A DNA stretch of 64,000 nucleotides. It comes from an uncultured Bacteriovoracaceae bacterium (GTDB lineage: Bacteria; Bdellovibrionota; Bacteriovoracia; Bacteriovoracales; Bacteriovoracaceae). The position numbers were made by a program, and so were the translations under genes. Under the pieces are notes generated by a model. It ran no database searches. It saw only the letters and a program-made list of their open reading frames with translations, and was not told where the DNA came from. Within the stretch, counting starts at the first letter, position 1, and each line of letters opens with the position of its first letter. The DNA lies in NCBI GenBank assembly GCA_938034385.1, contig CALHLC010000007.1:1-64000 (forward strand). The letters are read 5' to 3'. Shown here in pieces: positions 52,854 to 56,764 of the stretch.

Positions 52854-52971
52854 AAGGTGCATCGTGCTATTTTGCCACCAAGTCGCCCTGGCAGTATTTT
52901 CGCCGCTGGCAGGCTTAACTTCCGGGTTCGAGATGTAACCGGGTGTTTCACTGCCGCTATAGACACACCAA
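52854..52971 (-). rRNA. rrf: 5S ribosomal RNA (solitary)
   Basis: About 117 bases on the minus strand fold as 5S rRNA. The 5' segment GGTGTGTC (52969-52962) pairs perfectly with the 3' segment GATGCACC (52863-52856) as helix I. The conserved TCGAACCCGGAAGTTAAGC loop-C/helix-III segment is present, and the 3' half contains GCCAGGGCGACTTGGTGGC. No 16S, 23S or tRNA gene lies beside it: ftsK begins 127 bases downstream and a protein operon diverges 113 bases upstream. It has its own promoter and terminator. The exact ends are estimated to within two bases. Confidence 0.92.
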
Positions 52972-53083: not shown

Positions 53084-53398
53084 ATGATTTTAACCAACCT
53101 TGAGTCCGTTCCGGGCAAAAGTATTACAACCCATTTTGGTCTTGTCAGCGGAAGCACTATTCGGGCCAAGCATATAGGAAGAGACTTAATGGCAGGCTTT
53201 AAAAATATTCTTGGAGGAGAACTTAAAGGATACACCGAACTCTTAAATGAATCGAGACAAGAAGCTGTAAAAAGAATGAAAGAGCAAGCACGCTCTTTAG
53301 GAGCCAATGCAATTATTAATGTTAGATTCTCGACAAGTTCTATTACTCAAGGAGCAGCAGAGCTTTATGTTTATGGAACAGCTGTGAGTGTTTCATAA
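53084..53398 (+). CDS. YbjQ-family (UPF0145/DUF74) protein
   Basis: A 104-residue protein of the YbjQ family, which forms small oligomeric (pentameric) soluble proteins sometimes labelled heavy-metal-binding, with no proven activity. The family pattern is clear: LTNLESVPGKSITTHFGLVSG at the start, SRQEAVKRMKEQARSLGANA, IINVRFSTSSI and the ending ELYVYGTAVSV. AAGGAGA precedes the ATG. It is the first of three tightly coupled plus-strand genes: its stop shares a base with the start of a membrane-anchored paralogue, which in turn overlaps an M48 protease gene. Confidence 0.88.
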   Translation: MILTNLESVPGKSITTHFGLVSGSTIRAKHIGRDLMAGFKNILGGELKGYTELLNESRQEAVKRMKEQARSLGANAIINVRFSTSSITQGAAELYVYGTAVSVS

Positions 53399-53850
53399 TG
53401 TTTAGCTATGGAAGTTTAGCACTTTTTTTAGCTGCAGGTTTTATTTTTGGAACCATTGCAGAAAAAAAGCATTTAAAAGAATTAAGAGAAAAAGAGAACT
53501 TATTAAAATCGATTATTTTAAGTACTTCAAAAAAACATAGTTTTGTTCAACAATCATTACATTCTACTTTAGTCACAGGTCATGTTGTTGTTGCTCTTGA
53601 TTACTTTAAAAGATTTGTTGCTTCACTAGTTAATCTAGTTGGTGGACGAGTTTTTTCATTTGAAAGTTTAATTGATAGAGCTCGTCGTGAGGCAATCATT
53701 AGAATGAAGGAAGATGCTCATCGAAACGGATTTGATTCCATCATTAATGTTCGAATAGAAACAAGTAATATAGGTGGAAGTGCAGGTAAAAAAGGTGGAA
53801 TGGGTGCCATTGAAGTCATGGCCTATGGTACGGCAATTAAACACTCATGA
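53398..53850 (+). CDS. membrane-anchored YbjQ-like protein
   Basis: A 150-residue paralogue of the preceding YbjQ protein with an added N-terminal membrane helix (about residues 4-20, YGSLALFLAAGFIFGTI) and a charged linker (EKKHLKELREKENLLK). The YbjQ core follows from about residue 45: VTGHVVVALDYFKRF, RARREAIIRMKEDAHRNGFDS, IINVRIETSNI and EVMAYGTAIKHS. The core would face the cytoplasm if the helix inserts as a signal anchor with the positive linker inside. It starts on the stop of the first YbjQ gene and overlaps the protease gene by four bases. Confidence 0.82.
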   Translation: MFSYGSLALFLAAGFIFGTIAEKKHLKELREKENLLKSIILSTSKKHSFVQQSLHSTLVTGHVVVALDYFKRFVASLVNLVGGRVFSFESLIDRARREAIIRMKEDAHRNGFDSIINVRIETSNIGGSAGKKGGMGAIEVMAYGTAIKHS

Positions 53851-54671
53851 AGTACGATCAGAACCTCCCAGATGATTCAGTAAATGCCCCAGATGAAGCT
53901 TGGTGGAAACAGGTATTAAAGCTTGGACTGACTATACTTTTTGTCGTTGGGATTATCGGATTAGGTTCTCACTTTTTGGGACATATATTAGGGCCACTTA
54001 TTCCAGTTTCTATACATAAAAAAATGTCTAATTATTATGCCAAGGCCTTTATTAATCTTAGCGATAAAAATTCACCTCGCTATCTTTATACTAAAGATCT
54101 TTTTGAAAAAATCTTAGAGAAAAAAAATTTAAACATTGATGAATGGGAGATTAAGCATGTGAAGCAAGAAGTTGTTGCAGCAACTCTGCCTGGTAAGATT
54201 ATCGTTTTTTCAGATAAGCTTTTTGAATATGTTTGTCATGAAAATGCTCTTGGCTTTATTTTATCTCATGAAATTGGGCATGCTTACCTAAAACATCCTG
54301 AATTAGCTTTTGGAAAGTTACTACCTCATGTTCTTTTAAATCTAGTGTTTAATATTAATGTAGGCAACGATGTTCTCGAATCCTTAAACTCCATGCTTGA
54401 TTTGAAGGTATCAAGAACCAGAGAAAAAGCTGCTGATAAATTTGCAAAAAAATTAGCTTTAGAATTATATGGTCACCTAAATGGGGCTGATGAGTTCTTT
54501 CAAAGGCATTTAGAAGAACAAGGAAAAGCTGGTCCTCATGAATGGTTCTCAACCCATCCTGATACAAATAAAAGAATTGAAGCAATCAATTCCAAAGAAG
54601 GTCATTTAGCTGAATTAATAGCTCTGCCTGACAATATTAGATCTAAGAAATGTAATATTTTCAATGAATAG
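53847..54671 (+). CDS. M48-family membrane metalloprotease
   Basis: A 274-residue zinc metalloprotease of the M48 (HtpX/Oma1-like) family. One membrane helix lies at about residues 24-44, and the catalytic motif HEIGHAYLKH at 141-150. A third zinc ligand is probably the Glu in SRTREKAADKFAKKLAL (the family's E-x3-D helix). A late WFSTHPDTNKRIEAI is the conserved M48 ending. There is no lipobox or cleaved signal. It is coupled by a four-base overlap to two YbjQ-type genes, which suggests they work with it, perhaps as subunits or regulators. Confidence 0.85.
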   Translation: MKYDQNLPDDSVNAPDEAWWKQVLKLGLTILFVVGIIGLGSHFLGHILGPLIPVSIHKKMSNYYAKAFINLSDKNSPRYLYTKDLFEKILEKKNLNIDEWEIKHVKQEVVAATLPGKIIVFSDKLFEYVCHENALGFILSHEIGHAYLKHPELAFGKLLPHVLLNLVFNINVGNDVLESLNSMLDLKVSRTREKAADKFAKKLALELYGHLNGADEFFQRHLEEQGKAGPHEWFSTHPDTNKRIEAINSKEGHLAELIALPDNIRSKKCNIFNE

Positions 54672-54704: not shown

Positions 54705-55346
54705 ATGAAAAACATCTTTCTTCTATTCCTATTATCATGTGGTCCGCTTGTCAGGTCAGCCCATGTAGATATCAAGAAAAACAAACAAGACTTTGAAAAT
54801 CATCCGCAAGCCATTGAGATAGAATCTTTAGAGAAGGAACATGTAGAGAGCTTTCAAGTAGATATTCAATTCAAAACCGTTTCTAAAAATCAAATAGTTA
54901 ACTACAAATATGAGCTCTCATTTAGTTTTGATACTGAGCATATTTATATTAATAGAGATTTATTCTTAAGTGATGAAAAAACCTCCTCTACCCTTAAGTT
55001 TAAAATTAAATCGCTACCAAATATGAGCCAAGAACAAAGAAGCCTCATTTCTATCAATGCCAAAGGAAAAGACGCTGGACTTTTATTCTTATCAAGAAAA
55101 GCTCAAGACCCACTAAACTTTTTTGGACTTTCTTACCCTAAAGAAATTGGATATTTTAAAAATAAGTGGGGCTGGATTGGGATTACTATTGAAGATAATA
55201 ATATTGTAAGACATCAAGATTCTCAAAATAACCTGATTCCATTCACTAGAGTTGAAATCCCTGATGATAAAGACTTTCTTTTATATAAGAAAAAGTTTGG
55301 ATTTAAAAAAATTCCTCTAGGAATTAAAAAGTATACAATTTATTAA
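54705..55346 (+). CDS. putative lipoprotein, unknown
   Basis: A 213-residue protein whose N-terminus MKNIFLLFLLSCGPLV carries a lipobox (LLSC, Cys12). The mature part is beta-rich with many charged residues and no other Cys. No family is recognised. It begins 33 bases after the M48 gene and may be cotranscribed with it. Its last four bases overlap the stop of the convergent diaminopimelate decarboxylase gene. Confidence 0.7.
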   Translation: MKNIFLLFLLSCGPLVRSAHVDIKKNKQDFENHPQAIEIESLEKEHVESFQVDIQFKTVSKNQIVNYKYELSFSFDTEHIYINRDLFLSDEKTSSTLKFKIKSLPNMSQEQRSLISINAKGKDAGLLFLSRKAQDPLNFFGLSYPKEIGYFKNKWGWIGITIEDNNIVRHQDSQNNLIPFTRVEIPDDKDFLLYKKKFGFKKIPLGIKKYTIY

Positions 55347-56737
55347 ATCAGACTTTTTTGTATTTTTTGATTTCTAAGTAAATCATCAAAATCTTCACGT
55401 TTTCTAATTAAGTAATCGCTCTTTCCTTTAATCGCAACTTCAGCTGGAAGATAAAAACTATTGTACTCACTGGCCATTGTAAAACCATAAGCACCTGAGT
55501 CTAGAAGAGCTAGAATATCACCGACCTCAGGTTTAGGTAAAAGTCTATCTTTAGTTAACATATCCCCTGTTTCACAAATATTTCCTGCAACTTGAAATTT
55601 TTTTGTTTTCGACTTTCCATTTAGAATTCTCACTCTATGGTATGCCTCATACATTATGGGCCTTGCTAAATGATTAAAACCCGTATCGACATTTATGAAA
55701 TTTGTTATATCAGTCATTTTTACTGAATTAACTCTTGATAATAATACGCCAGCTTCAGCAACAAGGTATCGTCCAGGTTCAAGCCAAACCTCAGGAAGAT
55801 TTTTAAACTTTGAAAAACTTTTCTTTATAATAGGACAAACGATACTGGCCAATCTCTCCGGTGAAAACCTTGCTTGATTATCTCTATAAGGAATACCAAG
55901 ACCTCCTCCCATATTAATAAAGCTGATTTCATGACCAAACTTTCTTTTAATCTCTAAAGCTATAGAGCATAAAATATTTGCATTTTTTTCAAAAGGTTTA
56001 GATTCTAAAATCTGTGATCCAATATGACTATGAATCCCTTCAAAGCTAATAAGGTTGTTCTCTATTGCTCTTTTAGCAGCTTTATAAATATCTCCATTGA
56101 GATACATAAGACCAAACTTAGTAAACTTATGACCAGTAGATATATGTTTATGAGTAGAGCTTGTTTCGACGTCTGGATTAATTCTAAAGCATACTCTAGA
56201 TTTAGATTTTACTTTTTTTAGAACTTTTTCCAAATTCTCTAACCCGCTTAAAGAATCAATATTTATTAAAATATTATTTTTTATTGCAAACCCTAATTCT
56301 TCTTCAGACTTACTATTTGAAGTGAAAATAATGTTCTTACCAGTCTGACCTGCTTTAAGAGCAAAGCTCATTTCTCCAATTGAAATACATTCTGCTCCAG
56401 CTCCAAGAGAAGTAAGATAAGAGACAATGTTTAAATTTGTATTTGCTTTGTATGCATAATGAACTTTAACTTTAGGGTAATGCTTTTTAAACCCATCACT
56501 AAATTCTAAGTATCTTGTTTTGATTAAATCCCAATCATAAATATATGTTGGACTTCCATATTTATTTGCAATTTTTCTTAAAAAAGAATGACTAAATCTT
56601 CCAACAGATGAAAAGTATGGATCTAGTTTTTCTTTTTTATTCTTAGGGCCCCCAGCTTTTAGATTTAATGGTAAGGACAGAGCAAGTCCGCCTATAGTTG
56701 AAACCTGAAAAAACTCTCTTCTATTAAATTTAGACAT
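55343..56737 (-). CDS. lysA: diaminopimelate decarboxylase with Tat export signal
   Basis: A 464-residue PLP enzyme that decarboxylates meso-diaminopimelate to lysine. The catalytic domain is intact: VHYAYKANTN (PLP Lys97), HSHIGSQ, INMGGGLGIPY, WLEPGRYLVAEAG, ICETGD (active-site Cys) and DSGAYGFTMASEYN. The odd part is the first 30 residues: NRREFFQ is a twin-arginine motif (Arg6, Arg7), followed by a mild hydrophobic segment STIGGLALSLPLNL and a cleavage-like KAGG. Ordinary LysA is cytoplasmic and lacks this. Export would place the enzyme in the periplasm with PLP bound. Its ribosome-binding site lies inside a hairpin. Confidence 0.88.
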   Translation of the reverse strand: MSKFNRREFFQVSTIGGLALSLPLNLKAGGPKNKKEKLDPYFSSVGRFSHSFLRKIANKYGSPTYIYDWDLIKTRYLEFSDGFKKHYPKVKVHYAYKANTNLNIVSYLTSLGAGAECISIGEMSFALKAGQTGKNIIFTSNSKSEEELGFAIKNNILINIDSLSGLENLEKVLKKVKSKSRVCFRINPDVETSSTHKHISTGHKFTKFGLMYLNGDIYKAAKRAIENNLISFEGIHSHIGSQILESKPFEKNANILCSIALEIKRKFGHEISFINMGGGLGIPYRDNQARFSPERLASIVCPIIKKSFSKFKNLPEVWLEPGRYLVAEAGVLLSRVNSVKMTDITNFINVDTGFNHLARPIMYEAYHRVRILNGKSKTKKFQVAGNICETGDMLTKDRLLPKPEVGDILALLDSGAYGFTMASEYNSFYLPAEVAIKGKSDYLIRKREDFDDLLRNQKIQKSLI

Positions 56738-56764
56738 AAAAAAACTCCTGAAATTCAGGAGTTT
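56738..56764 (-). promoter_or_regulatory. hairpin over the lysA ribosome-binding site / terminator
   Basis: On the minus strand AAACTCCTGA and TCAGGAGTTT form a perfect ten-base stem with an ATT loop (56764-56742), followed by four more T and then the lysA ATG. The only ribosome-binding site for lysA, AGGAG seven bases before the ATG, is the 3' arm of the stem. The hairpin with its T-run also looks like a terminator for the Cys-rich gene upstream. A weak -10-like TATATT at 56770-56765 would start a transcript at the hairpin itself. Confidence 0.7.

Follow-up and report, generated by a model that had tools for sequence, protein, structure and literature searches.

Diaminopimelate (DAP) decarboxylase, LysA, is a textbook cytoplasmic enzyme, and the solved LysA structures from Methanocaldococcus jannaschii (1TWI/1TUF) and Helicobacter pylori (2QGH) share their fold, their pyridoxal phosphate (PLP) lysine and their DAP-binding residues with the protein analysed here. 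This protein carries what reads as a signal for twin-arginine translocation (Tat), and if the signal works as predicted we would be dealing with a known enzyme in a new location. As we propose for this LysA, PvdN of Pseudomonas is a PLP enzyme that is exported in the folded state by Tat. PvdN, however, matures siderophores and has another PLP fold, whereas LysA is an amino-acid decarboxylase of primary metabolism. A literature search that left out most subscription journals turned up no report of an exported LysA.

The lysA gene lies on the minus strand at 55343–56737 (stop codon included) of the window, the 64,000-nucleotide stretch of DNA from an uncultured Bacteriovoracaceae bacterium that we analysed. 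It starts with ATG and encodes 464 amino acids, annotated here from profile match, alignment and fold as a Tat-tagged meso-DAP decarboxylase. Profiles, alignment and fold likewise define residues 47–464 (55346–56599, minus strand) as a fold-type III PLP decarboxylase body with DAP-binding residues. Against the lysA profile TIGR01048 the protein scored 432.7 bits (cut-off 297.9), with residues 53–457 aligned; it also matched both Pfam domains of fold III decarboxylases, and its nearest solved relatives by sequence were DAP decarboxylases (1TWI, 5.9e-86). The conserved LysA motifs comprise the PLP lysine K97, HIGSQ (H238), GGGLG (G277–279), EPGR (E320/R323), RPxxY (R359/Y363) and CE (C388/E389). 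In an alignment of 12 LysA proteins from the phylum, K97, R323, R359, Y363, C388, E389 and Y425 were invariant and H238 nearly so; the PLP- and substrate-binding roles of these aligned residues (K97 and the Arg, Tyr, Glu and Cys positions) we take to be those known from solved DAP decarboxylases. In the AlphaFold2 model (mean pLDDT 83.7) the catalytic part starts at about residue 47, residues 1–45 lying outside the fold with values below 50, and the best 14 Foldseek matches of the model were all DAP decarboxylases (TMt 0.86–0.94; 0.88–0.94 for the best five).

The TIGR01048 score, the invariant residues and the predicted fold bear out the preliminary description of a complete LysA with its catalytic motifs; judged by sequence and structural model, the open reading frame (ORF) is a genuine DAP decarboxylase with predicted activity. 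When the window genome (99.3% complete) was searched for a second, signal-less lysA, as the preliminary description had suggested, none was found. The sole other match, considered as a candidate for a second cytoplasmic LysA (C48), was ruled out as the arginine decarboxylase SpeA (731.8 bits).

Compared with LysA of the TIGR01048 type, the window protein differs in having 46 additional residues, made up of the Tat signal and a linker, and in belonging to genomes with no detectable dapA or dapB. The N-terminal extension, MSKFNRREFFQVSTIGGLALSLPLNLKAGG, reads as a twin-arginine signal. Motif rule, conservation and model assign residues 1–28 (MSKFNRREFFQVSTIGGLALSLPLNLKA; 56654–56737, minus strand) to a predicted signal peptide, followed by a linker (residues 29–46; 56600–56653, minus strand) that is variable in the comparison of relatives and lies outside the predicted fold of the AlphaFold2 model. 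NRREFF occupies residues 5–10, within a short n-region, with the arginine pair R6–R7 encoded at 56717–56722 (minus strand), and is followed by 18 uncharged residues with a best mean hydropathy of 1.6. A TatFIND-like rule devised for the present analysis flagged a single one of the 60 window ORFs of at least 100 amino acids, the LysA ORF, and was passed by 0.03% of shuffled LysA N-termini. Applied to longer stretches around the loci, the rule flagged five of 188 ORFs, four of them tagged LysA and the fifth a LysC with the motif at residue 31, which is probably a false match.

The curated Tat signal HMMs PF10518 (TAT_signal) and TIGR01409 gave no match with the window protein, and the proteins of two relatives, G002 and G001, reached 15.6 and 13.5 bits with PF10518, below its cut-off of 22.7; missed thresholds are usual for Tat HMMs as short as these. 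A signal-peptidase site of the AxA type is present as ASA in G001 and as AHA in G108, a genome outside the genus, and is weak in the window protein (LKA-GG) and in G003 (LKS). A downstream start that would drop the tag was considered and rejected, there being no in-frame ATG, GTG or TTG at residues 2–30 in either the window protein or that of G002; an internal ATG at residue 22 of the tagged LysA occurs in G003 and G001 only.

Every one of the four genus genomes encodes a tagged LysA, and RRxFF is invariant in these proteins, which are 62–86% identical; the three other genus proteins start with MSSFNRRKFFQISTIGGLALSMPIDLKS, MSKINRRSFFEISALGGVAIGLAPRAFS and MSKISRRSFFEISTIGGVALTMPLKASA. Within the tag, RR, FF, S13, GG and A19 are invariant across the four members, while residues 21–46 drift. 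A comparison of the window lysA with that of its closest relative shows nine silent and three amino-acid changes in the first 20 codons, and eight silent and 11 amino-acid changes in the next 26. TatC is encoded in all four genomes. The nearest LysA outside the genus, that of G108 (59% identical), has an open frame without a tag; the tag is encoded just upstream as METNRRQFMQLGLAGGLSLTFLKDAHA, with a frameshift between the two, and the upstream DNA encodes METNRRQFMQLGLAGGLSLTFLKDAHAGPKK...YRFTHKQLQELVQKYGSPLYVYDGD, the N-terminal part of this LysA that the frameshift has split off. The G108 tag, METNRRQFM...AHA, ends in the standard AHA site, and its arginine codons are CGT CGT as opposed to AGA AGA in the window and the rest of the genus, which indicates that the arginine pair has been kept at the protein level. 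In the G108 lysA (L085, 1670–3050, minus strand), the frameshift lies near an A6 run and separates the Tat-signal part from the catalytic part; it is either an assembly error or recent damage.

A check for close orthologues without the RR motif thus found it retained in all four genus members and in G108. Beyond this clade, the TatFIND-like rule, applied in all frames to the 240 nucleotides upstream, flagged no tag at any of the roughly 90 further LysA loci of the phylum (the scan took in 102 LysA loci, some counted twice). Moreover, among the 369 genomes of the phylum covered by a profile search, those of the genus were the only four in which the N-terminal extension aligned. A tree of 54 LysA proteins, all from the phylum, placed the five tagged proteins in a single clade with support of 100/99, indicating a single origin. 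This clade fell outside the main LysA clade of its own family, so the tagged lysA may, on this phylogenetic placement, have been acquired from elsewhere. The twin-arginine export signal of the preliminary description therefore stands as a real and conserved sequence feature limited to one LysA clade, but the KAGG cleavage site named with it is weak.

Abutting the lysA ATG is a 10-bp hairpin followed by a T-run (T7) at 56742–56764 (minus strand), with the Shine-Dalgarno sequence AGGAG (56745–56749) in its 3' arm. The comparison of the four genus species showed hairpin and T7 to be identical except in the loop, and G108 has a different hairpin, of 13 bp, at the same place before lysA (L085, just above 3050). 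The hairpin probably serves the upstream gene as its terminator, and translational control by it is possible. A switch specific to lysA is made less plausible by another G002 gene with the same hairpin–T7–ATG arrangement. At L093 (3939–5018, minus strand), hairpin, T7 and ATG of a gene of a genus member follow each other without a spacer; with the arrangement seen outside lysA as well, overlap of terminators with start regions may be frequent in this compact genus. No lysine riboswitch or other Rfam RNA was detected at lysA, the sole match being a nearby 5S rRNA gene (52854–52970, minus strand) that lies between ftsK and a YbjQ-type gene pair. The neighbours of lysA encode FtsK, the YbjQ pair, an M48 peptidase, a radical SAM protein, a LysR protein, an EamA protein and a tRNA synthetase, with no wall or lysine gene among them. 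The two adjacent YbjQ paralogues and the membrane M48 peptidase that follows them (53084–54671, plus strand) keep their order in two genus relatives.

The DAP pathway of the genus is incomplete. dapA was detected in none of its four genomes, whereas 108 of 129 family genomes had it, as did 14 of 14 controls. dapB likewise went undetected in all four and was matched in 49 of the 59 genomes of the dapB search, the model used being less sensitive (11 of 14 controls matched) and scoring mostly below cut-off in Bacteriovoracaceae. Since neither dapA nor dapB is detectable, LysA would not be the last step of a home-made DAP pathway. The genus should need outside DAP for its wall, and its gene content fits the earlier proposal that LysA uses DAP from outside. 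Both murE and dapF are kept in the genus, and MurE carries DNPR, the motif of enzymes that add meso-DAP. Scavenging of meso-DAP alone would not account for the retention of dapF.

In relatives, the operon order is lysC-dapB-dapA-dapD-decarboxylase-desuccinylase-like. The decarboxylase of this operon belongs to the same superfamily as the window LysA; unlike it, the operon enzyme lacks the CE and RPxxY motifs as well as the signal, and sits with lysC-dapB-dapA-dapD. Its scores of 178.9 bits (L084, 4527–5690) and 201.2 bits (L086, 4361–5578) do not reach the LysA cut-off, and it is missing in the genus of the tagged LysA. At L086 (4361–6705) and L084 (4527–6757), dapD is followed by the fold III decarboxylase and an AstE/AspA-like desuccinylase, which together perhaps form a variant route from a succinylated intermediate.

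DAP synthesis seems to have been eroded repeatedly in Bacteriovoracaceae. The family members G076 and G107 (98–99% complete) are without dapA and keep an untagged LysA, and G034 (86% complete) has neither dapA nor LysA. G076 and G107 resemble the genus in keeping LysA without dapA, but differ from it in having no export signal, and the G076 LysA falls in the main LysA clade of the family, unlike the tagged window protein. These two genomes suggest that DAP scavenging does not require export. Conversely, G108 has the tag together with dapA and dapD, and pathway loss does not by itself account for the tag. A causal role of pathway loss in the origin of the tag is therefore weakened from both sides, and tagging may have preceded the loss, to judge from these gene contents.

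We regard it as fairly probable, on the sequence evidence, that Tat exports folded LysA and that in the periplasm the enzyme makes lysine from exogenous meso-DAP, separated from the DAP imported for MurE. LysA would fold and bind PLP in the cytoplasm, and the N-terminal RR signal would send the folded enzyme via the Tat translocase to the periplasm, where it would decarboxylate peptidoglycan-derived meso-DAP to L-lysine, which would then be imported. Because dapA and dapB appear to be lost, the genus would be unable to make DAP, and MurE would have to rely on imported DAP or DAP peptides; with LysA kept outside, this imported pool would be spared. The DAP would most likely come from prey wall digested in predation, and possibly also from the bacterium's own wall turnover. 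Cultured Bacteriovoracaceae are predators of bacteria, and the family name makes a predatory lifestyle of the genus probable. Tat translocation reaches the periplasm only, and no result argues for transfer into prey, leaving the prey-space location raised in the preliminary description unsupported.

Other readings of the tag have to be weighed against periplasmic lysine production. LysA could be wholly or partly cytoplasmic, with a slow or inefficient Tat signal or a signal anchor, and could make lysine from imported DAP, the tag then serving dual localisation or membrane attachment. That it is the only LysA of its genome speaks for this, as do the weak cleavage sites in the window genome (G000) and G003, and the dapA-less relatives with untagged LysA make cytoplasmic DAP-to-lysine salvage plausible. 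We nonetheless consider this reading unlikely: RRxFF and the GG-hydrophobic core have been preserved next to a drifting linker, and the AHA cleavage site of G108 is of textbook form, observations that suggest selection for export as such. At the other extreme, an RR motif arising by chance in a disordered N-terminal extension would agree with the failure to pass the Tat signal HMMs; with RR kept in five of five clade members, one of them using different codons, with so few shuffles passing the rule and with the motif missing from all other LysA tested, such a coincidence is exceedingly improbable.

The remaining readings accept export and change what the enzyme does. It might handle wall fragments, clearing free DAP released by turnover of the bacterium's own wall or that of prey, and not serve lysine nutrition. 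Location and substrate chemistry would suit this, and so would a MurE of the meso-DAP type, but without dapA and dapB lysine would otherwise be supplied by direct uptake alone, and lysA is adjoined by no wall-recycling genes; we therefore hold it to be quite improbable. A switch of substrate, for example to D-lysine, ornithine or another wall-derived amino acid, leading to a polyamine or similar product, is highly improbable in our estimate: the LysA equivalog gives the best score by far and the residues aligned with the substrate binders of DAP decarboxylases are kept, even though the fold family includes enzymes for such substrates and the 'SEYNSFYLPAEV' segment differs from the usual SxYNxRPRPAEV of some relatives.

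Periplasmic conversion of exogenous DAP can be extended to a fuller account, to which we give a little less than an even chance. According to this account, the lineage gave up DAP synthesis, and its Tat-exported LysA makes lysine in the periplasm from DAP that digestion of the prey wall sets free. A single prey polymer would then nourish the predator in two separate compartments, as lysine for protein synthesis and as DAP for its own wall. If this is true, a biosynthetic step of amino-acid metabolism now serves digestion outside the cytoplasm, and the organism would depend on the peptidoglycan of other bacteria for both its wall and its lysine. A tagged LysA without dapA and dapB would then offer a direct and testable genetic marker of bacteria that depend obligately on prey wall.
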